64,000 nucleotides of DNA from a virus: positions 84,971-148,970 of IMG/VR virus record IMGVR_UViG_3300028392_000034; one strand, written 5' to 3'. Position numbers and translations under genes: made by a program. Under the pieces are notes generated by a model. It did no database searches, was not told the origin of the DNA, and saw only the letters and a list, made by a program, of their open reading frames with translations. Positions 39,959-55,159 of the stretch are shown here, piece by piece (positions within the stretch are counted from its first letter, which is position 1; the number at the start of each line of letters is the position of its first letter).

Positions 39959-40236
39959 GATACCTGATGCTAACATATTATTACCAGCCCTCTGGTAAAA
40001 TCGACGAAGTCATGACTGTGGCAACTCGAGTCAAAAATAAAGATTGGCAAACTGCCAGTGTAATTTTGGACTTTAAAGAACAAATAGTTCTCAAAGCTGC
40101 CCTGCGTGATACTGCTATTCCTAAAGACTGGGATCGAATTGTTGGCTACTATTATCCGTTCTATACCAACATCATGGAAAGATTATTGCAACAAAACGGT
40201 CATGAATTACCCAAGGCAGTCGCAATGCAACCATAA
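39955..40236 (+). CDS. Conserved marine-phage hypothetical protein
   Basis: 93 residues. MRYLMLTYYYQPSGKIDEVM, ASVILDFKEQIVLKAALRD and YYYPFYTNIMERLLQQNGHE are typical of a small protein conserved in T4-like marine phages. Here it sits between the two radical-SAM genes, overlapping the first by four bases. No activity known; the placement may be chance or a functional adaptor. Confidence 0.75.
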   Translation: MRYLMLTYYYQPSGKIDEVMTVATRVKNKDWQTASVILDFKEQIVLKAALRDTAIPKDWDRIVGYYYPFYTNIMERLLQQNGHELPKAVAMQP

Positions 40237-40242
40237 TGACTC

Positions 40243-41151: not shown

Positions 41152-41176
41152 CCAAAACTGTGCTTTGTAGTATAAT
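41148..41176 (+). promoter_or_regulatory. Sigma70-type promoter driving a leaderless gene
   Basis: TTGACC overlapping the radical-SAM stop, 17-bp spacer, TATAAT, then AACAGT and the ATG at 41183. Confidence 0.8.
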
Positions 41177-41182
41177 AACAGT

Positions 41183-41785
41183 ATGAAATCAAAATATCAA
41201 AATTTAAACAAACTGATTCTAACCGACGCTGATGGTGTGCTATTAGATTGGGAATGGGCATTTAATGTTTGGATGCAAGAACACGGCTTTGAAGAAGTCT
41301 CGGGCAGTAAACTCAATTATGATATGAGTGTGCGTTACGGTATACCAAAAGAGCAAGTTAAAAAACTGATACGCATCTTTAATGAATCGGCCGCAATTGG
41401 ATTTTTACCTGCACTACGTGATGCCATGTATTATGTCAAGCGACTGCATGAAGAATACGGATTTAGATTTCACTGTATCACCAGTTTGAGTTTGGATCCT
41501 AATGCACAAAAACTTCGCGAAATGAATCTAAATAAATTGTTCGGGACGTCGGTATTTGAACGTATTGTGTGCTTGGACACCGGTGCTGACAAAGAAGAGG
41601 CCTTGGAAGAATACAAAGGCTCTGGATGCTATTGGCTTGAGGACAAACCAGAAAATGCCGAAGCTGGCTACAATGTAGGCCTACAAAGTCTACTGGTAGA
41701 ACACGGGCATAACATGCATTATTATCACAAAGGCATTACTGTAGTTAAAAACTGGAAGCACATTTACGAGATCGTTACCGGATGA
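41183..41785 (+). CDS. HAD-superfamily phosphatase/5'-nucleotidase-like
   Basis: 200 residues. Motif I is LTDADGVLLDW (Asp15, Asp17); a later CITSLS and the motif IV region YWLEDKPENAEAG complete the HAD set. Phage members are often called deoxyribonucleotidases or polynucleotide 3'-phosphatases. The alpha-helical cap is between residues 35 and 95. Cytoplasmic. Leaderless by promoter position and overlapping the next gene by four bases. Confidence 0.8.
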   Translation: MKSKYQNLNKLILTDADGVLLDWEWAFNVWMQEHGFEEVSGSKLNYDMSVRYGIPKEQVKKLIRIFNESAAIGFLPALRDAMYYVKRLHEEYGFRFHCITSLSLDPNAQKLREMNLNKLFGTSVFERIVCLDTGADKEEALEEYKGSGCYWLEDKPENAEAGYNVGLQSLLVEHGHNMHYYHKGITVVKNWKHIYEIVTG

Positions 41786-42510
41786 CGCCGTTGATACACA
41801 ATTATTCACAAGTAGCAGGTCGAACCCTACACTGGGATACCAGCGACAATAAAAATAACTATATTCAGAGCCTACAAAATCCAGTAGCATATCAACGACT
41901 ACATGATCTTGGATTTATAAATACACAGATTGACTACCAATACAATAGTCACGGGTTTAGAACAAAAGAATTTGATCAGCCATTTGATGCAGTGTGTTTT
42001 GGTTGTAGTTTTACCATGGGCACCGGAGTTCACAGTCGAGATACCTGGCCTGAACAGTTGTCTGCTATCACCGGTCTGTCGGTGGCCAATCTTGGACATG
42101 CTGGCAGTAGCAACGATACAGCCGTTAGATTTGCATTGCATTATTTGCCATTGCTACGCCCTCAGTATGCCATATGGCTACAAACAGATATGCATCGTAT
42201 TGAGCTATTGGATGAATCATTTCCAATGAGCTTGAATATTATAGCTAGTGATACTCAAAATCCCTGTGCCAACGATTTCTTTATTAAAACTTGGTTCACG
42301 TCGCCCTCTAATCAACAGTTGAATCTTCAAAAGAACGCCTTGGCATTTAAACAGCTATGCAATTCTTTGGGTATACAGAGTATAATTTTGCCCAGAGATA
42401 ACGCCATGGATTATCCATGGCCTGGTGGCACAGCTAGAGATTTACTACATCCTGGTGCAGACATATATAAAAAACTAGCCCAACAAGTTGCTGGGCTACT
42501 GGTTTCCTAA
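41782..42510 (+). CDS. SGNH-hydrolase-like protein
   Basis: 242 residues. Block I is VCFGCSFTMGTG (nucleophile Ser76), then block II/III NLGHAGSSND and the C-terminal LLHPGADIY with the catalytic-type Asp/His. SGNH hydrolases act on esters, often deacetylating polysaccharides or lipids. In phages the fold is also found as an accessory of fibres or as an esterase of surface glycans. No signal peptide is visible. The stop overlaps the convergent phoH stop by four bases. A second SGNH-type protein is encoded at 44581. Confidence 0.75.
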   Translation: MTPLIHNYSQVAGRTLHWDTSDNKNNYIQSLQNPVAYQRLHDLGFINTQIDYQYNSHGFRTKEFDQPFDAVCFGCSFTMGTGVHSRDTWPEQLSAITGLSVANLGHAGSSNDTAVRFALHYLPLLRPQYAIWLQTDMHRIELLDESFPMSLNIIASDTQNPCANDFFIKTWFTSPSNQQLNLQKNALAFKQLCNSLGIQSIILPRDNAMDYPWPGGTARDLLHPGADIYKKLAQQVAGLLVS

Positions 42511-43256
42511 TCGGAGTAAAGTCGTAGCACAGAATCAATGATTCTATGCCGCTGTATGTCTTGATTGTCAAGATTGCAAACAGCTATTCCTTTTACACCC
42601 CCTTCCCCCAGTCTTTGGCACAGGTCCATTAGACCATTATTGCCGCGGTTGCGATCCGCTTGTTCTACGTCGCCCGTGATTACAATTTTACTACCTTGGC
42701 CAATACGGGTCATTAGCATTTTGCACTGATTGGGAGTTGCATTCTGCATCTCGTCAGCGATAATATACGCATTTTTAAAAGTGCGGCCGCGCATGAAGGC
42801 CAATGGAGCTATCTCTATTCGTTGCTCCTGGATCATGGCAGCAATGTCCGGCTGACGATAATACTCACGTAGTATATCAGTCAATGGACGAACCCATGGA
42901 TCCATCTTTTGATTTAAATCACCGGGCAAGAACCCGTGCTGTTCATCTTCTACACCCACTGCGGGCCGCGTCAATACTATACGATTGACCTCACCTGCTC
43001 TAAATGCCTTTACTGCTGCCAGCATGGCTAAATATGTTTTTCCTGTTCCTGCTGGTCCTGCTGTGATCACAATCGGCTGATCTGCATCTTGCAAAGCCAG
43101 CACCAAACGTTCTTGATTTCTTGTGCGTGGCACAATATCAATGGGTCGTTGTTTTACTGGTTTTACTTGATCGAAGCGGATTGTATTTTCTTGATATGTC
43201 ATGTCATGACGTTTTTGTGATTTTGCTGCTCTTTGTCTACTCAATTTATACTCCAT
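42507..43256 (-). CDS. phoH: PhoH-like ATPase
   Basis: 249 residues. Walker A at 67-74 (GPAGTGKT), then VLTRPAVGVEDEQHGFLPGD, APLAFMRGRTFKNAYIIADEMQNATP and GSKIVITGDVEQADR: all hallmarks of the PhoH family frequent in marine phages. It has helicase/nuclease-like nucleotide-binding features; the phage role is unsettled. One of only four minus-strand genes in the window. The leader carries an ACAGCA/TGCTGT hairpin and a late-promoter element. Confidence 0.9.
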   Translation of the reverse strand: MEYKLSRQRAAKSQKRHDMTYQENTIRFDQVKPVKQRPIDIVPRTRNQERLVLALQDADQPIVITAGPAGTGKTYLAMLAAVKAFRAGEVNRIVLTRPAVGVEDEQHGFLPGDLNQKMDPWVRPLTDILREYYRQPDIAAMIQEQRIEIAPLAFMRGRTFKNAYIIADEMQNATPNQCKMLMTRIGQGSKIVITGDVEQADRNRGNNGLMDLCQRLGEGGVKGIAVCNLDNQDIQRHRIIDSVLRLYSD

Positions 43257-43275
43257 TGTAGTTGAGTTACTTCTA

Positions 43276-43303
43276 ACAGCACCTTTTGCTGTCCAAGTAT
43301 TTA
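43276..43303 (-). promoter_or_regulatory. Late promoter element and leader hairpin of phoH
   Basis: On the minus strand: CGTAAATAC (TAAATA at 43298-43303), then ACAGCA-N5-TGCTGT (43276-43292), and the ATG at 43256. The loop holds AAAGG. Confidence 0.5.
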
Positions 43304-43411
43304 CGGATCTAGTTCCTTGAGTTTAGTGTGGGTAGTAAATGATTCAAAAACGGCATAAGTATTAGGCTACACTCCAGATATTCAAACTCTCTGCTTAGAT
43401 CGAAATCACCA

Positions 43412-43417
43412 TAAATA
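43412..43417 (+). promoter_or_regulatory. Late promoter element, leaderless gene
   Basis: CATAAATA, then ATCGT and the ATG at 43423; divergent from the phoH late element. Confidence 0.55.
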
Positions 43418-43422
43418 ATCGT

Positions 43423-44013
43423 ATGAGCAAAACCATTGATCAAGCTATATTCAAAGACGGTGCCGACTATTGGCAAATAGCCCAAAACATTCAGGATATC
43501 TATCTCAGTGAAGGCAGTCTCCTGACCCTACTGGACTTTGAGCGTGTGCTGGATGAGCTGGATTTGTATGCTTTTAAAAACTGGCAAATTGGCGAATTGG
43601 TATCTGGCCCTGAGATCAGCAAATACCGTGTGACTTGCATTTTTATGTGGCCAGAAAAGCTAATGCCAGATCCAAGAGGCGGGCGTAGATTATTGCCGTT
43701 TGATTGTGTGGTCAAATACAAAAAAACACAAATGAAAGTGCCGATCAAGATTGAAGATCCTAGTGATTATCGTCCAGGCACCCATAAAGCTCGCATAACA
43801 GAAAAACCCGTATGGCTAGTAGAAATATCCATGCCCAAAGCCTTGATGAGTGATATACGCACAGGCTCAGTAGAATTAGAAGATCAAGATATTGATTTAG
43901 CTGACTTAGATGATGCCTACGAGCAGGATCTAGATCAAGAAAGTTATCAAAGTGATTCACAGGCCCAAAATGCACAACAACAACTCCAACAACCTCAACA
44001 ACCTGCTTTCTGA
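43423..44013 (+). CDS. Conserved marine T4-like phage protein
   Basis: 196 residues. WQIGELVSGPEISKYRVTC, WPEKLMPDPRGGRRLL and VVKYKKTQMKVPIKIEDP match a family conserved in T4-like marine phages, followed by an acidic then Gln-rich low-complexity tail. Role not known to me. The start is the predicted first base of a late mRNA. It overlaps the next gene by 44 nt. Confidence 0.75.
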   Translation: MSKTIDQAIFKDGADYWQIAQNIQDIYLSEGSLLTLLDFERVLDELDLYAFKNWQIGELVSGPEISKYRVTCIFMWPEKLMPDPRGGRRLLPFDCVVKYKKTQMKVPIKIEDPSDYRPGTHKARITEKPVWLVEISMPKALMSDIRTGSVELEDQDIDLADLDDAYEQDLDQESYQSDSQAQNAQQQLQQPQQPAF

Positions 44014-44539
44014 AAGCCTAGGGTTTAAAGACCTTGACGGCATGATGAAGCCCACGGTTCACGTGGACGAATTTTCAAGCAAAATGGGCGATGACGACGA
44101 TGTCATAGTCATCAGCTTCTTTGTGCGTGATCAACAGGCCGCCAAAGACCTAATGAATTGGTTTGAAAAGGGTTACGACTTTGTGTTGGATGCTGATCGT
44201 AGTCCAGGTGAAATCAAACCCAATCGGTATTTGGTCTATGTGGAAATTCGCCGTCGCTCAACGGCTGGTGGCAATGTAGAACAGTTGTTGGATGATCTAA
44301 ATACCCTGACTGAATTTGACGACAGTTCGGCGTGGACCATGCACTATAAAGGTAAAGAAACTCCTTTTAGTAGAGATGAGTTCGATCGGTTAGTTCCGTT
44401 GAGCCCAAGAGCTTACCGCGAACGTTATGAACGAGATCTAAATGAAGTGCGTGTTGCTGCCGGTATACCAGTGGTCAGTAACTATGATAAACGAGATCGA
44501 GCATTACAAGCCATTCAATCAGCCGCTGGCATACTGTAA
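43970..44539 (+). CDS. Conserved marine T4-like phage protein
   Basis: 189 residues from the ATG at 43970; a start at 43952 or 44042 is also possible. After an Asn-rich leader it carries FSSKMGDDDDVIVISFFVRD, LDADRSPGEIKPNRYLVYV and ALQAIQSAAGIL, a conserved pair with the protein before it. Likely acts in virion assembly or DNA maturation; function unknown. Confidence 0.75.
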   Translation: MHNNNSNNLNNLLSESLGFKDLDGMMKPTVHVDEFSSKMGDDDDVIVISFFVRDQQAAKDLMNWFEKGYDFVLDADRSPGEIKPNRYLVYVEIRRRSTAGGNVEQLLDDLNTLTEFDDSSAWTMHYKGKETPFSRDEFDRLVPLSPRAYRERYERDLNEVRVAAGIPVVSNYDKRDRALQAIQSAAGIL

Positions 44540-44569
44540 AAATTCTGATTCAACTGCGTAATATAGGTA

Positions 44570-44575
44570 TATAAT
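44570..44575 (+). promoter_or_regulatory. -10 box of a likely leaderless promoter
   Basis: TATAAT, then TGCCT and the ATG at 44581. The -35 is poor (TTCAAC at 15 bp), so this promoter is uncertain. Confidence 0.5.
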
Positions 44576-44580
44576 TGCCT

Positions 44581-45264
44581 ATGCGATTAAAAAGTTTTGG
44601 GTGTAGTTTCATACACGGAACAGAATTATCCGATCAAACATTTGTTGGCGTACGAGATATGCCAAGTCAATCCACCTGGCCAGCACACTTGGCACGTCAC
44701 CTCAACCGACAATATCGATGTTTTTCTCATGGCGGGTCTGGAAATTTACAAATATTAACACGAGTATTAGATCAAGCAGCCAGTAGCGACAGTTTAGATG
44801 TATTTGTAATTGGATGGACTTGGATTGAACGTTTTGATTATTACGTTGACAATCACGGTGATCAAGCCATAGACCCTTGGAATACTATAAGCCCAACGGA
44901 TCAAAGCACAGTTGCACAAATATACTATCGAGATCTACATTCTGAATTTCGTGATAAGTTAGTGAGTTTAACCAGCATAAAACTAGCAATCGATACCTTA
45001 CAACAACGCAATATACCGTTTATTATGACCAGTCTAGACGAGTTATTGTTTGATCAACGCTGGCATGTTTCGCCAGCCATATTGGATCTTCAGGCTTATA
45101 TACGACCTTTTATAACTGATTTCGATGGACAAAATTTCCTAGAGTGGACCAAACGCAACGGGCATCCGATTGGGTCTGGCGGCCACCCACTAGAAGCGGC
45201 ACACTGTGCCGCTGGTGATTATATGATCAAAGTTTTTGATAAACAAAATACAATCGATCATTAG
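44581..45264 (+). CDS. SGNH-hydrolase-like protein
   Basis: 227 residues. The N-terminal LKSFGCSFIHG (nucleophile Ser9), SHGGSGNLQIL (Gly and Asn blocks), and a C-terminal GSGGHPLEAAHCAAG (catalytic His) follow the SGNH order. It is the second such protein, shorter and starting right at the motif. The 3' end overlaps the convergent methyltransferase gene by 38 nt. Substrate unknown. Confidence 0.7.
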   Translation: MRLKSFGCSFIHGTELSDQTFVGVRDMPSQSTWPAHLARHLNRQYRCFSHGGSGNLQILTRVLDQAASSDSLDVFVIGWTWIERFDYYVDNHGDQAIDPWNTISPTDQSTVAQIYYRDLHSEFRDKLVSLTSIKLAIDTLQQRNIPFIMTSLDELLFDQRWHVSPAILDLQAYIRPFITDFDGQNFLEWTKRNGHPIGSGGHPLEAAHCAAGDYMIKVFDKQNTIDH

Positions 45265-45946
45265 TATCTTTTTTAAACTCTAACAATTTTAAATTGTATT
45301 TTTCAGCAAACTCTTTTACTATTTCAAATGTCCACGGAAATATTTCCACATACGGACCGGTCTTGTGTGTAATACCTGGATTGGCCCGCAAGTAAAATCG
45401 ACCGCCTGCATCCAGTATATCCACACATTTTTTAAAGCGACTTTCTATTTCATCACGATCGTTGAAGTTGATTGATCCTAGTGCAATAACAACATCATGG
45501 CTCCCCACATAATCCAAAATATCAACCATATAGTCAGCACAGTTGTTGTAAGGGTCGATACCAAGTAAATTGTTAATCCTACCCTTAAATGGGTGATACC
45601 CGCAACCAACGTCCAAAACGCTTCGAGGATTCTGTTTATTAATTTCATCTGCTAGTTCCCATCCTGTGTAATCATAATCGCCTGTTCTAGGCTTCCAAAT
45701 TTCGCCAAAAAAGCGATTGATATAACGCTCACTTAGGTCATGTGTTATATCCCGTACGGTGCCTATATACTCACAAGGCAAACTCAACTCTGCTTCCACA
45801 GCATCTTTGAACTTTCTATAACGTGCCGGAGTCCAGGGCAGGTCTTGCACAATAGTATCGGCGTCAATTACGATGTCGGCATACTTGGGCAAATTAAAGG
45901 CTGTAGTTAAATTTTCTTTAATCAGGTTAAAAATTTTGGTGTTCAT
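45227..45946 (-). CDS. SAM-dependent methyltransferase-like protein
   Basis: 239 residues. Motif I is SVLDVGCGYHPF; GIDPYNNC and DVVIALGSINF follow as motifs II and IV. The N-terminus is helical with no further domain. Its first codons (MNTKIFNLIKEN) are repeated twice further upstream at 46605-46691. AT-rich and on the strand opposite to its neighbours, so probably a recent arrival. The target is not predictable. Confidence 0.8.
   Translation of the reverse strand: MNTKIFNLIKENLTTAFNLPKYADIVIDADTIVQDLPWTPARYRKFKDAVEAELSLPCEYIGTVRDITHDLSERYINRFFGEIWKPRTGDYDYTGWELADEINKQNPRSVLDVGCGYHPFKGRINNLLGIDPYNNCADYMVDILDYVGSHDVVIALGSINFNDRDEIESRFKKCVDILDAGGRFYLRANPGITHKTGPYVEIFPWTFEIVKEFAEKYNLKLLEFKKDTNDRLYFVYQKL
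45911..45946 (-). repeat. Direct repeat R1 (start of the methyltransferase gene)
   Basis: ATGAACACCAAAATTTTTAAC plus a similar tail; R2 is 46632-46652 and R3 is 46655-46691. R1 and R3 are near-identical over about 36 bp. Confidence 0.8.
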
Positions 45947-45955
45947 TGATATCTT

Positions 45956-46615
45956 TCATTGTTTGTGTTGCAATATAAAACGCACATGTCCATTTATATG
46001 TGCCCATTTGTCTATTTTACTTTGCGGAAATCCTTGAAGTGTGGGATAATCTAATAAGTTAATTTTGTATCCTGTTGAATGCAGTATATCATCAAATAAT
46101 AAAATCAATTGTTCCATTGGAACATTAGGCTTGTTAGGTAAAACATTAAAATTAAATGTAAATAAAAATTGATCTTTTACTATATTCATTGCTAGATCAA
46201 TTTGTTTGGGCACCTCACTCCATTTAATGAAATGAAGGCTGTTCAGCGCCATTCCGCAAGTCCAATTCTTTGCATGTCCTCGACTGAAATCCTCATCAAA
46301 AAAATCAACAAAATCTTGTTTTGAAAATTCATTTGTATTAGGATCAAATCCCACAATGTTCGGGAACCAGTTTTTCCAAACACATTCTCCACAGCCTACG
46401 TCAATAACCGATTCGGGTTGATTGTTATATAACTGATCAATGTAATAGCAAATGTCTCGGAATCCTATTTTCAACCCTGATTCATAAAGGTATCTGGGAC
46501 TAATTTCAAGATCACCCACAGTATCAAACAGTCGATCATAGTGTTTTAATAATTTAGCATTCAGGTCCGGGAAATTTTTAAATGTTGTGTTCGGTGAATA
46601 GGGGTTAATTAACAT
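45956..46615 (-). CDS. SAM-dependent methyltransferase-like protein
   Basis: 219 residues. Motif I is SVIDVGCGECVWK, with GFDPNTNEF (motif II) and ALNSLHFIKW. It is a diverged relative of the protein at 45227 by its motif order. No Shine-Dalgarno is visible; the region upstream has two degenerate copies of the neighbour's start. Substrate unknown. Confidence 0.75.
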   Translation of the reverse strand: MLINPYSPNTTFKNFPDLNAKLLKHYDRLFDTVGDLEISPRYLYESGLKIGFRDICYYIDQLYNNQPESVIDVGCGECVWKNWFPNIVGFDPNTNEFSKQDFVDFFDEDFSRGHAKNWTCGMALNSLHFIKWSEVPKQIDLAMNIVKDQFLFTFNFNVLPNKPNVPMEQLILLFDDILHSTGYKINLLDYPTLQGFPQSKIDKWAHINGHVRFILQHKQ

Positions 46616-46631
46616 AGTTTTTCCAGTTCAA

Positions 46632-46652
46632 GTTAAAAATTTTGGTGTTCAT
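46632..46652 (-). repeat. Direct repeat R2
   Basis: A copy of the methyltransferase start (ATGAACACCAAAATTTTTAAC) with no gene following it; the frame stops near 46605. Confidence 0.75.
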
Positions 46653-46654
46653 TA

Positions 46655-46691
46655 AAATTTCTTTAAAAAGGTTAAAAATTTTAGTGTTCAT
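46655..46691 (-). repeat. Direct repeat R3
   Basis: ATGAACACTAAAATTTTTAAC with CTTTTTAAAGAAATTTTA, a second copy in the same frame as R2 (tandem ORF of 28 codons, 46605-46691). Confidence 0.75.
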
Positions 46692-46710
46692 ACGAAATTT
46701 TCCGTTCTTT

Positions 46711-46760
46711 GATAAATAAATTTACAAGAGAGATAAAAAATTTTGCCTCCCTTGTAAATT
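46711..46760 (+). promoter_or_regulatory. Late promoter element and strong leader hairpin of the ferritin-like gene
   Basis: GATAAATA at 46711-46718, then AATTTACAAG...CTTGTAAATT (46719-46728 with 46751-46760), a perfect 10-bp stem with an inner GAG/CTC pair. AAGGAG at 46774-46779 is outside the hairpin, so it does not mask the ribosome site. Confidence 0.6.
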
Positions 46761-46785
46761 CATCATAACTATTTAAGGAGATTAT

Positions 46786-47481
46786 ATGAACAGTAAAGAA
46801 TTTGTTGCCAAGATCGTGGCAGACAATCAAGCATTATTCCAAGCTAGTCAACACAATGTGAAAGCATACTTTGACAGCAAGCCTGCTCAAGAAGAGTTGG
46901 TCGAGCACTTTGTTGGCCGCATGGTCAACGAGCGTATGAACATGGTTGAAATCAGCCAAGCTATTGCAACAATGCCTGCTGATGCAGATCCAGTTGAATT
47001 GCAGTTGTTGACACAACAAGCACACGACGAAGCTGTTCATTTCCGCATGGTCAAAGAAGTAATTGAACACATCACTGGTGCACCGGTTGATGTTGAAGCT
47101 GCTATCGCCAAAGAAGCTGCCAAACCCACTGCCAAAGGCGCTGGTTTGTTGGCCAAATACGGCGCAGAAAATGATCCAGTTGCCTTGGCAGCTTACCAGT
47201 TGGTAGCCGAAGGCCGTGCCGAAGCAGTGTGGGATCAAATGGCCGACTGCATCGAAGATCCATTTATCTCCAAGAGCTATGCTAAAATTGCTCGCGACGA
47301 AGGCTTCCACAGCAAGATCGGTGCTCGCAAGTTAGAGCAGTTGGTTACAGACGCAGACGTTGCTGCCAAAGTTGAAACTTTGGTTGCCGCCATGCGTAAA
47401 GACTTGTATGAAATTTCATGCAAGAACACTGTTGCCGCAGATGCTGGTAAAGCATTGGTAGCAGACGCATACGGTTGGTAA
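46786..47481 (+). CDS. Ferritin-like diiron protein
   Basis: 231 residues, nearly all helical. Two DExxH motifs at 81-85 (DEAVH) and 171-175 (DEGFH), with Glu49 and a Glu in AEGRAEAVWD between, build the four-helix diiron site of the ferritin-like superfamily. It resembles the rubrerythrin/COQ7-like group in length but lacks a rubredoxin Cys pair. Possible roles are a peroxidase or an oxidase of a small substrate. Strong late-type leader with hairpin. It is followed by a glutamine amidotransferase gene one base later. Confidence 0.8.
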   Translation: MNSKEFVAKIVADNQALFQASQHNVKAYFDSKPAQEELVEHFVGRMVNERMNMVEISQAIATMPADADPVELQLLTQQAHDEAVHFRMVKEVIEHITGAPVDVEAAIAKEAAKPTAKGAGLLAKYGAENDPVALAAYQLVAEGRAEAVWDQMADCIEDPFISKSYAKIARDEGFHSKIGARKLEQLVTDADVAAKVETLVAAMRKDLYEISCKNTVAADAGKALVADAYGW

Positions 47482-47482
47482 T

Positions 47483-48034
47483 TTGAATATAGGATTAACA
47501 CAACGAATCCTATATCATAACGGTCAAGCGTATGATGCCACCCAGCATGGATGGTATTCATACTTACAGGGTCATACGCTTGTTCCAGTAGCAAATAGAA
47601 CAGATCAAGATTTTGAAGCAGTAGCACAAGAATTAGATGTATTAATCATCACAGGTGGAGACGACACTGCTCTTCGCCGCACAGTAGAATTAAAGTTAGC
47701 AGGACAAATGGCCTTGCGTAAAAAACCAGTTGTTGGTGTTTGTCATGGTTGTTTTTTGTTAACTGATGTATTAGGTGGTCGAGTAGAAGAAGTAGCAGGA
47801 CATCATAATACCACGCACAACGTAAATTACTTTGGTGAGCTAATAGCGGTCAATAGCTATCATACTTTGGCAATTAAAAAATTGCATCGGTCTGGTACGG
47901 TATTAGCCACTGACGCCGAAGGCAATTGTGAAGCGTGGATTGATGGTCAAACAGCAGGAGTGGTCTGGCACCCGGAACGTATGAAAACGCCTTGGTTACC
48001 AGATGAAATTTTAAATTTAACTTTTAAGGAATAA
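47483..48034 (+). CDS. Class I glutamine amidotransferase-like (peptidase C26)
   Basis: 183 residues from a TTG start just after the ferritin-like stop. The nucleophile Cys is in GVCHGCFLLTD; catalytic His and Glu are in VVWHPERM. This set fits PuuD/peptidase C26 and other class I glutaminase domains that release gamma-glutamyl groups or supply ammonia. The N-terminal region is unlike PuuD. Alone, without a synthetase partner, gamma-glutamyl hydrolase activity is the more likely reading. No SD is clear at the TTG. Confidence 0.75.
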   Translation: MNIGLTQRILYHNGQAYDATQHGWYSYLQGHTLVPVANRTDQDFEAVAQELDVLIITGGDDTALRRTVELKLAGQMALRKKPVVGVCHGCFLLTDVLGGRVEEVAGHHNTTHNVNYFGELIAVNSYHTLAIKKLHRSGTVLATDAEGNCEAWIDGQTAGVVWHPERMKTPWLPDEILNLTFKE

Positions 48035-48035
48035 A

Positions 48036-49028
48036 ATGAAACGATTATTTGCAGCATTGTTTATTACCATGGCCGGAATGGGCGCATGTTCGGTATCCCA
48101 TGCTTGGGAACCTACAAAAACAGTCACAGTTGTTGTGGGCAACACACCCGGTGCCGGAAACGAGATAGCATTCCGTAAACTGGCCGAAATTGTGCAGAAG
48201 AAAAATCCCAAGTTTGTTTATGTGGTGGAAAATCGCCCGGGTGCCGACAGTGCAGTGGCCAACAACCATTTCATACAACAACCTGCAGATGGCTATACCA
48301 TCAACTTGCCAAGCCATATGAGCAGCTATGTCACCAATGATATTTGGGAAGCAAAGATTAAAAAATATCAATGGGACAGTTTTGTTGATGTATTGACCAT
48401 GGGCAAGAGTCCGCTGGTATTGGTTGCCAGCCCAAAAAGCACAGTAGAAACACCAGTTGACTTTGTGCGTTATCTTGCTAAGTCTACTCGGCCTATTAAT
48501 ATTGCTGTAGGCGGCGGAGCACATAGAACAGCATACGAATATTTGATTAACAAAGCACATGGCAATCGTGATCTGATCAAGCCAATCAAATTCAACGGTC
48601 CATTGCCAGCAGTGACCAGCGTGGCACAGTACGATGGAAAAGTAGGCACAGAGTTTGGTATTATGCCTATTGCTGTGGCTAGGCCATTGGTCGAAGCCGG
48701 CAAAGTCAAAGCCATTGGATTTACTGGTACACGCACAATGCCACAGTATCCGGATGTGCCACTGTTGAACACTGTGGCACCGGGAATTAATGTATACGCA
48801 GCTTGGTCAATTGAATTGCCCCCCAACACAGACAAAGAAATTGTTGCATGGTATCAGAAAACATTCAGTGCCGCAATTCGCAGCAAGGAATATGCCGAAT
48901 GGCGTGAGAAAAACGTAGTATTCTATGAAGAGGCCGAACTTACTCCAGCAGGTTTGAAAAAACAAATGGAAAGTTTACGTGAAACATTCTTGCCAGTGCT
49001 ACAACGAATTGATTTGAGTAAAGAATGA
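48036..49028 (+). CDS. TctC/Bug-family periplasmic binding protein
   Basis: 330 residues behind TTAAGGAAT. The signal peptide ends at SHA (about residue 23). The mature part has VVVGNTPGAGNEIAFRKLAE, VVENRPGADSAVANNHFI, INIAVGGGAHRTAYE, EAGKVKAIGFTGTRTMPQYP and VPLLNTVAPG, all classic Bug/TctC motifs. These proteins bind carboxylates for tripartite tricarboxylate transporters and are expanded in beta-proteobacteria. A free phage-encoded binding protein, with no TctA/TctB in view, would act with host transport or binding. Very unusual cargo for a phage. It overlaps the next gene by four bases. Confidence 0.9.
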   Translation: MKRLFAALFITMAGMGACSVSHAWEPTKTVTVVVGNTPGAGNEIAFRKLAEIVQKKNPKFVYVVENRPGADSAVANNHFIQQPADGYTINLPSHMSSYVTNDIWEAKIKKYQWDSFVDVLTMGKSPLVLVASPKSTVETPVDFVRYLAKSTRPINIAVGGGAHRTAYEYLINKAHGNRDLIKPIKFNGPLPAVTSVAQYDGKVGTEFGIMPIAVARPLVEAGKVKAIGFTGTRTMPQYPDVPLLNTVAPGINVYAAWSIELPPNTDKEIVAWYQKTFSAAIRSKEYAEWREKNVVFYEEAELTPAGLKKQMESLRETFLPVLQRIDLSKE

Positions 49029-49645
49029 AGTATATTTTTTGTGCCGGTGCTCCAGGCAGTAAATGGTCGAGCTTGATTAAAAATATCTACTATAGTCCCA
49101 GTATAGATCGTACTGACTATACCGAAGATAGAACCTACTACCACGATGCTTCGGGCAAATTAGACCTGATGCATCTTGGAGTATACTTTGATCCTGGAAT
49201 GGAGTTTGGCGATTTCTTTGACAAGCTCAGTGACTATACAAAAGAACAATGTGAAGCAGAGTTTGATCGGCCTTTTTCAGGCGAAGGTACACGTATTATC
49301 AAAAGTCATGTGTTTGCACACCATGTAGACTTTATTAAATCTACGTGGCCCGACTGTCCTATTATTTTAGCCCTGCGTGACAACGATGCTTGTCTGGGCT
49401 GGTGGGTGCGTTGCGGACATTTTAATATTACCTATCCCAGCTACGATAAGTATTATAAGAATTTGCGTGAAATGAGTAAAATCATTGATTGGCAAAATCG
49501 AGACATAGGCCGGGCATGGGCTAATTATGATGGCCTTGTTGTTCGCAACAATCAAGAACTAGCAGAAATATTAGGTATTCCACAACCGCCAGAAGAATAT
49601 CAGCAAGACTATATGGCGTCTGACCTAGAGGTAAAAGTAATATGA
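49025..49645 (+). CDS. Sulfotransferase-like P-loop protein
   Basis: 206 residues. CAGAPGSKWSSLI (residues 6-18) is a 5'-PSB-type P-loop without the Walker Lys-Thr, KSHVFAHH supplies a possible catalytic His, and ILALRDNDACLGWW resembles the 3'-PB segment that contacts PAPS. The layout fits the sulfotransferase superfamily. Sequence is weakly conserved, so another P-loop activity remains possible. Lies four bases inside the TctC-like gene and before an oxygenase gene. Confidence 0.55.
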   Translation: MKYIFCAGAPGSKWSSLIKNIYYSPSIDRTDYTEDRTYYHDASGKLDLMHLGVYFDPGMEFGDFFDKLSDYTKEQCEAEFDRPFSGEGTRIIKSHVFAHHVDFIKSTWPDCPIILALRDNDACLGWWVRCGHFNITYPSYDKYYKNLREMSKIIDWQNRDIGRAWANYDGLVVRNNQELAEILGIPQPPEEYQQDYMASDLEVKVI

Positions 49646-50328
49646 AAAATCAAGCAGATTATGACAGCAGTTGGCAGTGGTGTGTAGACCATAGTCGTTA
49701 TCATTTCAATGATTCTCGCAAGGATCAACCAGGTGAGTGGTTCCAAGTGTTGGGCCGCTTTGTAGGCACATGGTCAGATGAAGTCGCTCAAGCACAGGGC
49801 AAACCTATAACTTGGGCCACACGTAAATTTTACGGCAACGATGACAACACAGTTAGCCCTATGCTGGCACAAGAAGAAAATGATTTACGCACAACAGGTG
49901 CACCAGTAGACCTTGAGTTAACCGATGCGGTATTTGATATCAGTGCATATCCTACGTTGACTAGAATAAGTGAATACTTTGGGCTGGAAGATCCCAAGAT
50001 ACGTATGCATTATCAACAACCTGGTCAAATGTTTAATCTGCACATAGACAAATTACAAGAACGCTGTCCCGATGATCCAGAACAGGTAGTGCGTATGACC
50101 GTAATGTTAGATGATTGGCGCCCTGGACAATTCTATCTATTTGGTACTCACACATATTCGCATTGGCAAGCCGGAGATGTTCACATATTCGACTGGGCCA
50201 ATGTTCCACATGCCACGGCCAATGCCAGTCGCTACATGCGTCCAACACTACAGGTCACAGGACTTAAAACAGAGAAAACTCGTCAGATGATGGCCGTAGC
50301 AGGACCGTTGGTCAAATATCTAGTATGA
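49642..50328 (+). CDS. 2OG-Fe(II) oxygenase-like protein (Asp/Asn beta-hydroxylase type)
   Basis: 228 residues. FNLHIDKL gives His134 and Asp136; FDWANVPHATANASRYMRPTL gives His190 and the 2OG-binding Arg197/Arg200. RMTVMLDDWRPGQFYLFGTH contains the core strands. The same HxD...H...R layout as the protein at 4108 but longer. It lies between two sulfotransferase-like genes, overlapping both by four bases, so a hydroxylation step in the same pathway is plausible. Confidence 0.65.
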   Translation: MKNQADYDSSWQWCVDHSRYHFNDSRKDQPGEWFQVLGRFVGTWSDEVAQAQGKPITWATRKFYGNDDNTVSPMLAQEENDLRTTGAPVDLELTDAVFDISAYPTLTRISEYFGLEDPKIRMHYQQPGQMFNLHIDKLQERCPDDPEQVVRMTVMLDDWRPGQFYLFGTHTYSHWQAGDVHIFDWANVPHATANASRYMRPTLQVTGLKTEKTRQMMAVAGPLVKYLV

Positions 50329-50954
50329 AAAAACAGTTGTTGATTATATCAGGTCCACAAGGATCTGGTAATCATGTCTGGAGTAAAATACTTGCCTTGC
50401 ATCCAGCAGTGTATGGGTGGAAAGAATTGAATCAAACCTATTGGATCGGGCATGATCAAGAACCATTTGCTGACTGTTGGAACAACACCGATCTATTGAA
50501 AAATTTCGATTGGAATCAAAGCGATTATTATGTGACCGGTGTAAGTTGTCCTTACATGAACAATGGTGAACGCACTGTGCCCAATTTAATCGGCTTTGCA
50601 GCACAGGCCATGGGCTGTGGCATCAATGTACGATTTGCTATCATCGGGCGAGATCGTAATATCTTGTCGTTTCAAGAAACTCGGTTGCGTGGTGAGCCCA
50701 CATACAATATAGCTGTAGAACAGTATCAACGATTGGCCACATGGAATCCTGTATATCTCAGCTACGAGTTACTGCAATTGTATTCTTGTGACTATTTGAG
50801 GCAACTAAGTATTCTATTAGAGTTTCCAATAGATTACAACAATGCTTACATTGCGGAAATACTCCAAGATGACACTAATCAAAAATACTTTCAACCGGTA
50901 GCACATCATCCAACAGATGATTTAGCAAGACACACTTCAAGGAAATGGCGATGA
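50325..50954 (+). CDS. Sulfotransferase-like P-loop protein, second copy
   Basis: 209 residues. LLIISGPQGSGNHVWSKILA (residues 5-24) is the P-loop region; AIIGRDRNILSFQETRLRG fits the 3'-PB segment. Related in arrangement to the protein at 49025 but not close in sequence. The stop overlaps the APS-kinase-like gene by four bases. The pair next to an APS-kinase-type enzyme suggests PAPS-dependent sulfation. Confidence 0.5.
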   Translation: MKKQLLIISGPQGSGNHVWSKILALHPAVYGWKELNQTYWIGHDQEPFADCWNNTDLLKNFDWNQSDYYVTGVSCPYMNNGERTVPNLIGFAAQAMGCGINVRFAIIGRDRNILSFQETRLRGEPTYNIAVEQYQRLATWNPVYLSYELLQLYSCDYLRQLSILLEFPIDYNNAYIAEILQDDTNQKYFQPVAHHPTDDLARHTSRKWR

Positions 50955-51790
50955 CCCAACGTATATTGATAATGGGATTACCGGGTTCGGGCAAAACAAC
51001 ATTGGCTGCAGAACTCAAACGCTATTTAGAACTGCACGGAACAGCAGATCTAAGCAATGCTGAAATGTTGCCCATCACCGGATTCCGACCACACGTCACT
51101 TGGTTCAACGCCGACGATATTCGTCGCAAATACAACGATTGGGACTTCAGCAATGACGGACGTATTCGTCAAAGTATACGCATGTTTCAGTTCAGTATCG
51201 AGTCCGGTGGCGATTATGTTATCTGTGACTTTGTTGCACCCTTGGTCGAACAGCGTAACAATTTCAAAGCCGACTGGACTATCTGGGTCGATACAATTCG
51301 TGAAGGCCGTTATGCAGATACCAATGCAGCCTTTGTTGAACCTGAAGTATATGACTTCCGTGTCACGGAACAAAATGCAGAAAAGTGGGCTGAATTTATT
51401 GGCCAGCACATTATAGACCAGCGTCGCCGACCTGTGTTTGATTGGAAACGAGAAACTGTGCAGATGTTGGGTCGCTGGCAACCATGGCATGATGGACACC
51501 GTGCCTTGTTTGAACGATTGATTGCCAAGACCGGCCAGGTAGTTATTCAAATACGTGACGTTCAAGGTTGGCAAGGGTCAAATCCATTTGAAGTAGAACA
51601 GGTTAAAAAGTTTATTCGGCGTGATCTAGATCCTATCTATCAAGGACAATACGAAATACAAGTAGTGCCTAATATTGTTCACATAGGTTGGGGACGAGGT
51701 GTAGGTTACACTGCCGGAGAGGAAACTTTTGATGAATCAGTCACTGACATCAGTGCTACAAAGATTCGTAAAGAGTTAGGATTAAAATAA
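50951..51790 (+). CDS. APS-kinase-like / HxGH nucleotidyltransferase fusion
   Basis: 279 residues from the ATG at 50951 (AAGGA 7 nt upstream and an ATGA overlap decide it). N-terminal domain: GLPGSGKTTLA (residues 9-19), then FNADDIRRKYNDWDFSNDGR and ICDFVAPLVEQR, the pattern of adenylylsulfate kinase (D-DxxR...DFSxxxR). The C-terminal domain is a nucleotidyltransferase: GRWQPWHDGH (180-183 region) and ISATKIRKEL. ATP sulfurylase itself has a different insert, so NMN/CMP-type adenylyl or cytidylyl transfer is possible. As a fused PAPS-synthetase-like unit it would make the sulfate donor for the neighbouring sulfotransferases. Inference. Confidence 0.75.
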   Translation: MTQRILIMGLPGSGKTTLAAELKRYLELHGTADLSNAEMLPITGFRPHVTWFNADDIRRKYNDWDFSNDGRIRQSIRMFQFSIESGGDYVICDFVAPLVEQRNNFKADWTIWVDTIREGRYADTNAAFVEPEVYDFRVTEQNAEKWAEFIGQHIIDQRRRPVFDWKRETVQMLGRWQPWHDGHRALFERLIAKTGQVVIQIRDVQGWQGSNPFEVEQVKKFIRRDLDPIYQGQYEIQVVPNIVHIGWGRGVGYTAGEETFDESVTDISATKIRKELGLK

Positions 51791-51794
51791 CATC

Positions 51795-52001
51795 ATGAAT
51801 GATACGCCAGTTCGTAGCCTTGCCAAGGCAGTTAGCTGGCGTATCACTGGCACTATAGATACTTTCCTTATCAGTTGGTTGATTACAGGACAGGCACTGC
51901 TAGCCAGTGGTATTGCCTTGACAGAAATCTTGACCAAAGTAGGGTTATTTTGGGCGCATGAAAGAGTGTGGAACAGGGTCAAATGGGGCAGGACCAACTA
52001 A
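51795..52001 (+). CDS. DUF2061 family membrane protein
   Basis: 68 residues. AVSWRITGTIDTFLISWLITG and ALTEILTKVGLFWAHERVWNRV are diagnostic of DUF2061, a small bacterial inner-membrane family with two helices. It is often coded near sulfate-assimilation genes (APS kinase) in bacteria and phages, and here it directly follows the APS-kinase-like gene. The stop overlaps the endolysin late promoter. Confidence 0.85.
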   Translation: MNDTPVRSLAKAVSWRITGTIDTFLISWLITGQALLASGIALTEILTKVGLFWAHERVWNRVKWGRTN

Positions 52002-52030
52002 ATATTAGTATCTAACAAGGTACTGATATT
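51999..52030 (+). promoter_or_regulatory. Late promoter within a dyad before the endolysin
   Basis: TAAATA (51999-52004) overlaps the left arm AATATTAGTA (52001-52010); the right arm TACTGATATT (52021-52030) ends at the ATG. The 10-nt loop holds AAGG. Pairing in read-through RNA would bury the start; a late transcript would lack the left arm. Confidence 0.6.
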
Positions 52031-52642
52031 ATGCAAATTACACCACAACAGCTACAACAATGCATTGGCAATAACCCATATTTAGAGCACTGGGCCGAAG
52101 CCTTAAACAAAATACTACCAGATTATGAAATCAACACACCACAGCGTGTGGCTGCTTTTATTGCTCAATCGGCACACGAAAGTGGTAACTTTACTGCACT
52201 ACACGAAAACTTGAACTATCGGGCCGAAACACTGAGAAAAATTTTCCCCAAGTATTTCACTGACTCCAGTGCAGAACAGTTTGCTCATCAACCCGAAATG
52301 ATTGCCAATCGGGTCTATGCCAACAGAATGGGCAATGGTGACGAAGCGTCAGGTGACGGCTTCCGTTACTGCGGTCGTGGACTTATTCAGTTGACCGGCA
52401 AAGCCAACTATCAAGCCTTTGCCGACAGTTTAGAAATGCCAGTAGAAGCTGTTCCTGACTTCTTACAAACATTTGAAGGTGCTATACAAAGTGCCTGCTG
52501 GTTCTGGGAAAGCAACAACTTGAATCAATACGCCGACTCGGGTGATATCCTGACAATGACCAAACGCATCAACGGTGGCACCATTGGCCTAGAAGATCGC
52601 CAAAAACATTATAACCACGCATTACTAGTGTTCGGAGCTTGA
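52031..52642 (+). CDS. Endolysin, GH19 chitinase-fold
   Basis: 203 residues. The GH19 core AHESGNFTALHENLNYRAE gives catalytic Glu50 and Glu59; YCGRGLIQLTGKANYQAFAD and INGGTIGLEDRQKHY complete the family pattern. It breaks the peptidoglycan backbone at the end of infection. No signal peptide, so the holin at 53343 must release it. Head of the lysis block (endolysin, spanins, holin), with a late promoter in a dyad. Confidence 0.9.
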   Translation: MQITPQQLQQCIGNNPYLEHWAEALNKILPDYEINTPQRVAAFIAQSAHESGNFTALHENLNYRAETLRKIFPKYFTDSSAEQFAHQPEMIANRVYANRMGNGDEASGDGFRYCGRGLIQLTGKANYQAFADSLEMPVEAVPDFLQTFEGAIQSACWFWESNNLNQYADSGDILTMTKRINGGTIGLEDRQKHYNHALLVFGA

Positions 52643-52643
52643 T

Positions 52644-53072
52644 GTGTGGATTTTAAAGTGGTTGCCTGACATTGTATTTTACTTGGTCCTGTTGACCGGA
52701 CTGGCGGGTCTTGCGGCAAGTTCGGTTCTAAAATTTGTTCCACTGGTATCACTGTATCGTGCGCCTATTCAATGGATTGCGGCCATCATAACTGCATTTG
52801 GTTTGTATATGACCGGTGCCATCAGTGACAACCATGCATGGTTAGCCCGCGTGGCTGATCTGGAACAGCAAGTGGCAGCGGCCGAAGCCCGGAGCCAAGC
52901 AGAAAATGTAAAAATTGTAACCAAAATTGTTACCAAGCGTGAGTATTACAGGACCCAAGGCAACGATATTGTTCAATACGTAGATCGTGAAGTTGCAAAA
53001 TATGACAACACTTGCCCGGTGCCCAAGGAAGTTGTCAAAGCACACAATGATGCAGCCGGAGACCGTCGATGA
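52644..53072 (+). CDS. Inner-membrane spanin-like protein (Rz type)
   Basis: 142 residues from a GTG start. Two or three hydrophobic segments in the first 65 residues, then a coiled-coil region (ARVADLEQQVAAAEARSQAEN) and a periplasmic part with a short Cys. The overlap with the lipoprotein gene is four bases, the typical i-spanin/o-spanin arrangement. It differs from classic Rz in having more than one N-terminal segment. Confidence 0.7.
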   Translation: MWILKWLPDIVFYLVLLTGLAGLAASSVLKFVPLVSLYRAPIQWIAAIITAFGLYMTGAISDNHAWLARVADLEQQVAAAEARSQAENVKIVTKIVTKREYYRTQGNDIVQYVDREVAKYDNTCPVPKEVVKAHNDAAGDRR

Positions 53073-53326
53073 AATACCTCTTATTAGTCATGTTACTGGC
53101 AGGTTGCACAACAGTTCCAGTGGCACGCCGGTTTCCTGAAGCTCCAACGCAACTGCTAGAAACATGCCCACAATTGAAAACTATTGATACTGAAACAACA
53201 GTATTCAGTGTGTTGACCAAAACAGTTGTGTCAAACTACACCACATACCACGAATGTGCTACACTACAACGGGGATGGGTCGACTGGTATAACACTCAAA
53301 AGAAAACTTTTGAGGAAGTAAAATAA
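53069..53326 (+). CDS. Outer-membrane spanin lipoprotein (Rz1 type)
   Basis: 85 residues. Signal peptide and lipobox LLAGC (Cys13). The mature protein has two or three Pro in RRFPEAPTQLL and a C-terminal Thr/Tyr-rich region. Coupled to the i-spanin by a four-base overlap. Together they would fuse the inner and outer membranes after endolysin action. Confidence 0.7.
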   Translation: MKYLLLVMLLAGCTTVPVARRFPEAPTQLLETCPQLKTIDTETTVFSVLTKTVVSNYTTYHECATLQRGWVDWYNTQKKTFEEVK

Positions 53327-53342
53327 CAACAAGGAGCAAACC

Positions 53343-53867
53343 ATGGCAGATGAAACACTGAGCGCAAGTGAAAAGAAAAAAGAAGATTGGATGAATTCAA
53401 AGTGGCGTCCAATGATGGGCTGGATGTATATGTTGGTCTGCTTCTTTGACTTTGTTATTGCACCTATCTTGTGGAGCCTGACACAGGCCATGTTCCACGG
53501 TGGTGTTAATGTGCAATGGCAACCACTCACTCTACAAGGTGCTGGATTGTTCCACATCTCCATGGGTGCTGTGCTGGGTATTGCGGCCTATGGTCGCACA
53601 CAGGAGAAACTAAATGGAGCCAACAACGGGGGCATCGCCCTGCCAACAAGCGGAGGAACAACATATACGCCGCCGACACCAATCCAGCCCACAGCACCCA
53701 CCGGCTTTGGAAGCACAACTGCAACACCAACACCAGCCGCAAGCGGCTTTGGTAGCAGTGCAGGCTTTGGAGCAGGAGCGACTGCAGCTGCGCCAACCAT
53801 AACAACCACACCGCCAGCATTTGGCAGTAAGCCCACCGGGCCAGCACAATCATTCCCAGCATTATAA
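53343..53867 (+). CDS. Holin, 3-TM family
   Basis: 174 residues behind AAGGAGC. KWRPMMGWMYMLVCFFDFVIAPILW (residues 20-44) is the signature of the three-helix holin of marine T4-like phages and gene transfer agents, followed by a hydrophobic segment around 61-85. The C-terminal half is a low-complexity Pro/Thr/Gly tail (GFGSTTATPTPAASGFGSSA). It would open the inner membrane for endolysin escape. Confidence 0.8.
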   Translation: MADETLSASEKKKEDWMNSKWRPMMGWMYMLVCFFDFVIAPILWSLTQAMFHGGVNVQWQPLTLQGAGLFHISMGAVLGIAAYGRTQEKLNGANNGGIALPTSGGTTYTPPTPIQPTAPTGFGSTTATPTPAASGFGSSAGFGAGATAAAPTITTTPPAFGSKPTGPAQSFPAL

Positions 53868-53883
53868 TATAAGGAGAAACATC

Positions 53884-54027
53884 ATGTTAGACACTGTATT
53901 TTGGATCGCAGTAGGAGCATTTGTAGGTTGGAACTTTCCACAACCTGACTTTGCAAAAAACATACAAGCAAAATATTTGCAAAAATATATTGACAAACTT
54001 AAAGTTGTGTTATTTTTCTGGAGGTAA
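53884..54027 (+). CDS. Small membrane protein
   Basis: 47 residues from the ATG at 53884, behind AAGGAG. One hydrophobic segment (FWIAVGAFVGWNFPQP) and a basic C-terminal part. Adjacent to the holin and probably in the lysis operon; may tune lysis timing. Unknown family. Confidence 0.7.
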   Translation: MLDTVFWIAVGAFVGWNFPQPDFAKNIQAKYLQKYIDKLKVVLFFWR

Positions 54028-54029
54028 TC

Positions 54030-54248
54030 ATGAATTACATAATATCAATGATCGCTTTGATTGTGTTAATTGTCACCAACCCGGCCTATGCTGAAGTAAC
54101 CACCAAAGAAGTCTGTAGAGACAAAGTAGACAAAGCTGGCAAAGTGGTTCGAGACAAAAGTGGAAAAACTACACAGACGTGCAAAAAAATCAAAGTGCAT
54201 AAAAAGGTAGACGGAACCCGGGTTCCAGAAAAAGCACCCAAGAAGTAA
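54030..54248 (+). CDS. Small secreted basic protein
   Basis: 72 residues with a signal peptide ending AYA-E (about residue 21) and a strongly basic mature part with a Cys pair (VCRDKVDKAGKVVRDKSGKTT, TCKKIKVHKK). Behind GGAGG. Likely periplasmic; it may bind anionic envelope polymers. A terminator follows. Confidence 0.7.
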   Translation: MNYIISMIALIVLIVTNPAYAEVTTKEVCRDKVDKAGKVVRDKSGKTTQTCKKIKVHKKVDGTRVPEKAPKK

Positions 54249-54263
54249 TTGTAATCACTCCAG

Positions 54264-54300
54264 GCAAACAGTATAATTAATATGCTGTTTGCTTTTTTTT
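54264..54300 (+). terminator. Rho-independent terminator, with a promoter-like loop
   Basis: GCAAACAG/CTGTTTGC with a 13-nt loop and a run of eight T residues. The loop holds TATAAT (54272-54277) with TTGTAA 17 bp upstream, so it may also be a weak promoter reading into the DnaJ gene. Confidence 0.8.
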
Positions 54301-54304
54301 TGAC

Positions 54305-55087
54305 ATGACTGACCACTACCAAACTCTGGGCGTTGACCGCAACGCTACTCCTGACCAAATCAAACGGGCCTATCGTAAATTGGCCAGTCAGCATCATCCT
54401 GACAAAGGTGGAGACAAAGCACGATTTCAAGAAATTCAAGCCGCATACGATATACTAGGCAACGAGCAAAAACGTGCCGAATACAACAATCCGCGTCCGC
54501 AGGGTTTTAATTTTCAACATCAGGGGCCAGGCGGATTTGATTTTAACACTATATTTGATGTGTTCGGTGCCAGGTTCCAACAGCCACATCAACGGGTGAA
54601 TCGAGCACAAATGACCTTGTGGATTACACTAAACGATGTGGCCGTAGCTGGCCGCAAAACTATCAGTGTAGGCACTCCTCAAGGCACACAAGTTATAGAA
54701 ATAGATATACCTGCCAATATCGATGATGGTGATAGTGTTCAATACGCTGGTGTAGGCCCAGGTGGTATTGACCTAGTAATAACCTTTAGAATTCACCCCA
54801 ATCCCAAATGGCATCGTCAAGGCCCGAATTTGACTGTAGACCAAGACGTAAGCGTGTGGGACCTCATTTTAGGTAAGGATATTGTAATTCAAGACGTTTT
54901 GGGCAATCAACTTACCTTAACTGTACCGCCCAGAACACAGGCCAAAACCACGTTTAGATTACAAGGACGAGGACTTGGGCAAAAAGGCAATGCACCTGGC
55001 GATATGTTTGTGCGGGTTAATGCTGTGATACCTGCACATATTCCTGAATCATTGATGGCGGCCATTGTCCAAAGTCGTGACCAATAA
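54305..55087 (+). CDS. dnaJ: DnaJ-type co-chaperone (no zinc finger)
   Basis: 260 residues. J-domain with HPD at 31-33 (SQHHPDKGGDKARF), a short Gly/Phe region (GFNFQHQGPGGFDF) and two beta client-binding domains (MTLWITLNDVAVAGRKTIS; DIPANIDDGDSVQYAGVGPG). It lacks the zinc finger of DnaJ, as in CbpA/DnaJB. It would stimulate host DnaK. Directly followed by the ClpA-like unfoldase. There is no Shine-Dalgarno at the ATG, so it may be leaderless from the terminator-embedded promoter. Confidence 0.9.
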   Translation: MTDHYQTLGVDRNATPDQIKRAYRKLASQHHPDKGGDKARFQEIQAAYDILGNEQKRAEYNNPRPQGFNFQHQGPGGFDFNTIFDVFGARFQQPHQRVNRAQMTLWITLNDVAVAGRKTISVGTPQGTQVIEIDIPANIDDGDSVQYAGVGPGGIDLVITFRIHPNPKWHRQGPNLTVDQDVSVWDLILGKDIVIQDVLGNQLTLTVPPRTQAKTTFRLQGRGLGQKGNAPGDMFVRVNAVIPAHIPESLMAAIVQSRDQ

Positions 55088-55129
55088 ATAACCATATAGG
55101 TTGCAATTCTATTCTAACGGTAGTATAAT
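55085..55129 (+). promoter_or_regulatory. Tandem late and sigma70-type promoters for clpA
   Basis: AATAAATA (55083-55090) in the dnaJ stop region, then TTGCAA-N17-TATAAT (55101-55129); the ATG at 55160 follows AAAAGGA. This gene may be active early and late. Confidence 0.65.
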
Positions 55130-55159
55130 AACTGTAAGGCGTATTATTAAAAGGAATAC

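Follow-up and report, generated by a model that had tools for sequence, protein, structure and literature searches.

A TctC/Bug-type solute-binding protein conserved in a lineage of large phages, encoded in an operon slot that in some relatives holds a TctA-type permease and another TctC-like protein

The gene under study is carried by a virus contig of 148,970 bases, the last 64 kb of which (the whole stretch of DNA analyzed here, referred to as the window) contain an open reading frame (ORF) at 48036-49028 on the plus strand. The frame runs from an ATG through a stop codon, encodes 330 amino acids, and has zero internal stops; a ribosome-binding-like AAGGA, identified by eye, is located five bases ahead of the ATG (48026-48030, +). 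It belongs to a run of seven genes (46786-51790) that are contiguous, with 1-base gaps or 4- to 10-base overlaps. The run opens with c23 (46786-47481, +; 231 aa), for which only a sub-threshold match to the ribonucleotide reductase small chain was obtained, and c25 (47483-48034, +), a glutamine amidotransferase-like protein whose best NCBIfam match, gamma-glutamyl-CDP-amidate hydrolase, falls under the cut-off. Downstream of the focal gene, and overlapping it by 4 bp, is c2 (49025-49645, +), a sulfotransferase-like P-loop protein; 17 of 22 members match Sulfotransfer_3 (best E value, 1.1e-6), and the c2 model weakly resembles sulfotransferases (best E value, 0.0096). The product of c3 (49642-50328, +) is 2-oxoglutarate/Fe(II) oxygenase-like, judged by eye from an invariant H134-x-D136...H190...R200 arrangement typical of 2-oxoglutarate oxygenases, and Pfam returned nothing convincing for it. 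The run closes with c4 (50325-50954, +), a conserved P-loop-like protein that has no Pfam family match, and c10 (50945-51790, +), in which profile matches indicate an APS-kinase-like N-terminal and an NMN-adenylyltransferase-like C-terminal domain. A divergent, methyltransferase-like gene, c1 (45227-45946, −), was recognized in the neighborhood survey.

Several other features of the locus were noted. The c25 and c10 genes (47483-48034 and 50945-51790) resemble parts of a capsule phosphoramidate pathway, for which the one supporting match, NF045546 at 1.5e-12, lies under its cut-off; the pair recalls Campylobacter Cj1415-Cj1417, which we take to be the phosphoramidate capsule pathway. Two radical-SAM-like genes are located at 38822-41151. 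The gene-poor ends of the window are explained by genes cut at the edges (open frames of 1,053 and 546 codons). Scans of positions 40000-56000 against Rfam gave no match, and a promoter and terminator scan gave no useful excess over shuffled sequence.

The 330-aa protein matched Pfam TctC (PF03401) at 6.6e-18, with 65.6 bits against a curated cut-off of 27, and that cut-off was exceeded in 23/23 records of the viral TctC family. With this protein as the query, PHROGs yielded no matching family and NCBIfam nothing exceeding chance level. A profile of 17 diverse relatives retrieved exclusively TctC/Bug-type proteins from the PDB (25hk at 1e-16, TphC, BugD, AdpC, and Bug27). The AlphaFold2 model (mean pLDDT, 92; pTM, 0.86) shows the TctC topology of a Type II, two-domain binding protein, and its best structural match is Bug27 (Z score of 35.3 over 290 residues, 1.9 Å), with AdpC (Z, 34.4) and MatC (Z, 32.2) among the further matches. 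Each of the 11 highest-ranking matches is a TctC-type protein (Z, 29.8 to 35.3), and the following group falls to a Z score of 16.9. The phage protein thus shares fold, length, signal peptide, and Pfam family with characterized TctC/Bug proteins (Bug27, BugD, AdpC/Rpa4515, and MatC), at 16 to 22% identity to solved members in structural alignment. These profile and model comparisons confirm the family assignment proposed by a sequence-only reading of this DNA, namely, a TctC/Bug-type solute-binding protein that is predicted to be secreted.

The N terminus consists of MKR, a hydrophobic stretch, and SHA ahead of WEP, from which a signal peptide is predicted at residues 1 to 23 (48036-48104, +) with probable cleavage before W24; the A-x-A motif and the W24 region are conserved in the family. 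An A-x-A before W[EQ]P is present in 78/80 family members and the remaining two also begin in a signal-peptide-like manner, which upholds the earlier signal peptide claim at the level of a sequence rule. Cys18 is placed as in a lipobox, which suggested a lipoprotein, but this reading was dropped because the Cys is not conserved.

Section 13 of PMC5812351 describes the ligand loops of cellular TctC proteins, and homology to these was used to place the loops of the phage family. Ten residues are invariant in 80/80 family members: G39, G41, N42, E43, G159, G161, H163, E206, F207, and P211. According to that section, the pincer-loop signature PFxAGGxxD is almost ubiquitous, with exceptions. The phage loop reads G-N-T-P-G-A-G-N-E instead of the cellular P-F-x-A-G-G-x-x-D (PMC5812351, section 13), such that in the viral family P is replaced by G35, F by N36 (77/80), the second G by A40 (77/80), and D by E43. 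The signature was found in 0/80 family members and, among near cellular TctCs, in 12/60 (strict) or 19/60 (relaxed), so it does not separate the two sets here. Hence, of the earlier statement that the protein has all typical Bug motifs, the family identity holds but the pincer-loop signature is altered. In AdpC, the signature Phe is described as a hydrophobic docking site (PMC5812351, section 13); because this residue is replaced in the viral family, the ligand or the binding mode may be unlike those of the solved proteins. Thr22 is named as a contact of Bug27 in PMC11452294. Quinolinate was considered as the ligand by analogy with Bug27 and found unsupported; Thr22, for example, aligns to Asn42 of the phage protein (PDB alignment, chain numbering assumed).

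To estimate selection on the mature part of the protein, dN/dS was calculated for the same 80 of 81 members that were used for the residue counts (one member outside 300 to 400 aa was omitted). The median was 0.07 over 70 related, non-independent pairs; very divergent proteins account for the three pairs at the upper end, which reach 0.39. The viral TctC family is under strong purifying selection.

The sequence-only reading held that periplasmic solute-binding genes are very rare in phages. A single-protein query found 14 virus loci, and a query with a 14-row alignment found relatives in 102 virus contigs, 80 of which were retained; these relatives are 51 to 100% identical to the window protein and reside on contigs of up to 524,565 bases. 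Counts from the collections are lower bounds that favor close relatives because they are based on conserved peptide patterns. The claim of rarity is therefore not supported: with 102 contigs, the family is common among large uncultivated phages, though near-absent from GenBank phages, where 50,697 records gave one weak match (21.8% identity, on an unverified fecal scaffold). Plasmids gave 285 matching records, with 24.9 to 30.0% identity among the 40 listed. A first cellular scan, restricted to two phage-derived patterns, returned 35 stretches, none of which was confirmed; of 531 cellular loci confirmed subsequently, the best 80 share 22 to 31% identity with the window protein. Family-profile scores were 576 to 590 bits for members on other jumbo contigs and at best 107.5 bits in four TctC-rich cellular genomes. 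Within the searches made, the TctC family of the window thus appears to be virus-only.

To look for a donor, 90 rows were placed in a quick maximum-likelihood tree, the cellular ones being the first 60 of 123 matches of 290 to 360 aa. The 17 viral family members included in it form one group (SH-aLRT, 99) with zero cellular rows inside, on a stem of 2.31 changes per column. Of 13 further phage TctC-like proteins, 12 cluster separately from it, but on long branches for which mutual attraction is possible. The phylogeny that had been proposed as a check accordingly places the viral clade alone, and this quick tree singles out no donor clade. Nesting in a host clade near a donor, the criterion for a recent host auxiliary metabolic gene, was not observed. 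A recent acquisition from beta-proteobacteria, in which the sequence-only reading had described the family as expanded, is not borne out, given the low identity of the best cellular loci and the long viral stem.

The record is metagenomic and the family is carried by uncultivated sequences only, which raised the concern that host DNA had been assembled or binned into a phage contig. The family was surveyed at 81 loci (80 virus contigs plus the window; 11 duplicate loci from the same contigs with shorter flanks were omitted beforehand), comprising 57 distinct relatives at the 95% level with a common neighborhood. One contig, L016, matches the window at 100% over 20,990 bp, represents the same population, and is counted with it within the 81. 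A T4-type capsid gene (Gp23) is present in all nine family contigs of >330 kb tested and absent from the window's record, a fragment; overall, Gp23 was matched in 20/35 records. The likelihood of an artefact is negligible, and a chimera is excluded for practical purposes. The window itself encodes a clamp loader (at 37899) nearest, at 52.8%, to the PA5oct group of ∼286-kb Pseudomonas phages, as well as an endolysin, a ClpA-like ATP-dependent protease, and, by our own reading, a DnaJ-like gene. The TctC gene is probably part of the standing gene set in a lineage of large T4-type phages, which may infect aquatic Gram-negative hosts.

The gene order is conserved, although the following counts are conditional on the binding protein because the loci were selected by it. 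Among the 78 loci with an ORF after the binding-protein gene, c2 comes directly next in 65, and 46 of those 65 retain the 4-base overlap. The gene directly before it is c1 in 50/80 loci and c25 in 14/80; where c1 is not directly adjacent, c23/c25 lie in between.

Virus contigs were also searched with c2, which gave 355 relatives, 80 of which were retained and 79 of which were new loci. A window-type binding protein is present in 27 of the 79, TctA plus a TctC-like secreted protein in 19, the TctC-like partner alone in 1, and neither, within the flanks available, in 32. Both forms together were found in 0 loci, against ∼7/79 expected under independence, a figure that treats as independent loci that share ancestry. 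The TctA gene is a full-length ORF (479 to 493 aa) in 16 of the 19 loci, and five slot permeases tested matched Pfam TctA at 1.4e-83 to 2.2e-91. Its partner is a secreted protein of ∼350 aa for which Pfam made no TctC call; profile comparison with the window family aligned the first 89 columns at 93.7% probability, and its PDB matches are weak but TctC-type, with BugD first at 8e-5. By these profiles, the partner is a remote TctC. In contig L280, the order is c23, c25, TctA, partner, c2, c3, and c4, compared to c23, c25, binding protein, c2, c3, and c4 in the window, with c23 86% and c25 64% identical between the two. The reciprocal search with TctA found 157 virus contigs, of which 80 were retained; the partner is present in 76/80 of these loci, c2 in 52/80, and the window-type protein in 0/80. 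A strong Gp23 match was obtained in 5/11 TctA records tested (G026, G028, G029, G030, and G031). The TctA genes of G012 and G017 have few close relatives, with one beyond the source contigs. Because the binding protein alternates with TctA plus a TctC-like protein between homologous flanks, the position appears to be given over to solute uptake, and no other observation points as strongly to an uptake role for the window protein as this either/or exchange.

The exchange with a permease pair also bears on the suggestion that the protein is a decoy or mediates superinfection exclusion, by blocking a phage receptor or titrating a host factor. Its conservation and predicted secretion would suit such a role, but the invariant residues map to the ligand loops of the fold and the low dN/dS is unlike that of typical arms-race proteins. 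No support for a decoy or receptor blocker was found, and we regard it as very unlikely.

No TctA was detected by profile in the 149-kb record, a fragment, and 0 of its 221 ORFs have five or more hydrophobic windows, whereas a phage TctA used as a control scores nine. An own permease elsewhere in this record was therefore dropped as a candidate. TctB was likewise absent by profile from the 149-kb record and was recovered from 0/23 family records; among TctA-carrying records, it was found in 1/20. Small ORFs of 132 and 136 aa near a marine phage TctA were considered as TctB and are not membrane-like by eye. The phage record fragment thus holds TctC of the tripartite TctA-TctB-TctC (TTT) transporter and neither TctA nor TctB, which is the outcome of the check for TctAB-like genes that the sequence-only reading had called for. 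Its proposal that the protein serves a host TctAB is plausible on this basis, and coupling to host TctAB is the most likely arrangement because the record has no phage permease; for the same reason, the uptake partner is an assumed one. Because TctB is so scarce in both sets of records, the phage TctA may itself need a host TctB.

The lack of a permease in the 149-kb record can also be read in favor of signaling, in which the solute-bound secreted protein would act on a host sensor or chemoreceptor and not on a permease. Cellular TctC/Bug proteins are often orphans with no adjoining permease, as is the phage protein, and many bacteria have more orphan TctCs than TctAs, for which signaling is one suggestion made in PMC5812351. 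The 19/79 sister loci that hold TctA and its TctC-like partner, never together with the window-type protein, fit transport better, and sensing is accordingly considered unlikely.

We therefore favor, with moderate confidence, a periplasmic binding protein that feeds a TctA-type permease during infection in this lineage of large T4-type phages. The protein would be exported by its signal peptide during infection and would close on a small, probably carboxylate-like solute in the periplasm. It would then pass the solute to a TctA-type permease, most likely that of the host TctAB in the window phage; in relatives, this position of the operon brings in a TctA of the phage's own and another TctC-like protein. 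As a result, the infected cell may take up a compound of benefit to the phage. The altered pincer loop counts against this uptake reading, as do the lack of a permease in the 149-kb record, the scarcity of phage TctB, and the signaling suggested for cellular orphan TctCs. A further point against it is that 32/79 c2 loci have neither alternative, so that a transporter is dispensable for the module, although short flanks conceal some.

Imported solute may also be the substrate or cosubstrate of the operon enzymes, which would act on some molecule of the phage or the host; such a role would be one version of the uptake reading and compatible with it. The tight co-operon with c2, c3, c4, and c10 argues for it, as do the Sulfotransfer_3 matches of c2 and the APS-kinase-like and NMNAT-like domains of c10. 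On the other hand, c3 and c4 are without a Pfam family, the enzyme activities are guesses, and c2 occurs without either transporter form in 32/79 loci. Supply of the operon enzymes is considered less likely than not. A tentative and broader proposal is that a widespread T4-type jumbo lineage carries an interchangeable solute-import cassette, either a TctC-type protein capturing the host TctAB or an own TctA with a dedicated binding protein, co-transcribed with phage-specific sulfotransferase-, oxygenase-, and kinase-nucleotidyltransferase-like enzymes that would use the imported acid.

The PstS transporter is of the ABC class and imports phosphate, which distinguishes it from TTT. Cyanophage PstS is likewise a phage-encoded periplasmic binding protein and is thought to raise host nutrient uptake (PMC6359870); in contrast to PstS, relatives of the window phage also encode the permease. 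A tctA domain match was reported on SUP05 virus contigs with its role given as unknown (PMC4164917, mentioned again below a table in PMC6359870). As in relatives of the window phage, a viral contig there carries a TTT permease domain, but the account of it in PMC4164917 gives a domain match only and mentions neither a binding protein nor an operon or phage lineage. A "tctc" in PMC8290583 belongs to a primer and was rejected as a prior report. By the searches made, the conserved TctC/TctA module of jumbo phages is undescribed in the open-access full text searched, with the SUP05 tctA as the one relevant prior statement. Unlike cellular TctC/Bug proteins, the phage family forms a virus-only clade in the quick tree. 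Entries of the same type are present in BFVD/UniProt as automatically annotated PBP2_Bug_TTT phage proteins; A0A6J5T247, from an uncultured Caudovirales phage, has 41% identity in the structure search, and four more are less close. Such entries reportedly stem from a 2019 Microbiome paper, the main text of which (PMC6802176) nowhere mentions tricarboxylate, Bug, transporter, solute-binding, or sulfotransferase.

Phages that influence what their hosts take up have been described chiefly among cyanophages, for phosphate. In the present case, a family of secondary transporters that bacteria use for organic acids has become an established and virus-specific component of numerous large aquatic phages. 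The exchange of a binding protein only for a binding protein plus permease makes phage steering of organic-acid uptake testable, and it offers a natural comparison of which TTT parts the phage must supply and which the host.

Additional transporter-related genes were seen in these phages. More than one TctC match occurs in 13/23 records with the family (one extra match is weak), and jumbo phages of this lineage (records G001 to G022) often encode, at different loci, two or three secreted TctC-like proteins that diverge from one another. TctA is present in 2/23 family records, next to another secreted protein and away from the c2-linked slot. In the window-family phages L095 (7810-9990) and L096 (8843-11068), it lies beside a further secreted binding-protein-like gene and is adjoined by a gene with an SGG-DS motif that is N-type-ATP-pyrophosphatase-like by eye. 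A 182-kb record with a T4-type capsid gene (G028, locus L361) carries TctB and then a canonical TctA (5986-7919; E value, 6.3e-151), as well as a 536-aa ORF that is TonB-dependent-receptor-like by eye (10251-11861). Near c2 and c3, contig L230 encodes a DctP (TRAP-type) binding protein (11250-12191; 5.9e-46) with no obvious signal peptide. In the marine TctA contig L326, a 349-aa ORF located two genes before TctA resembles, by eye, an amino acid ABC binding protein.
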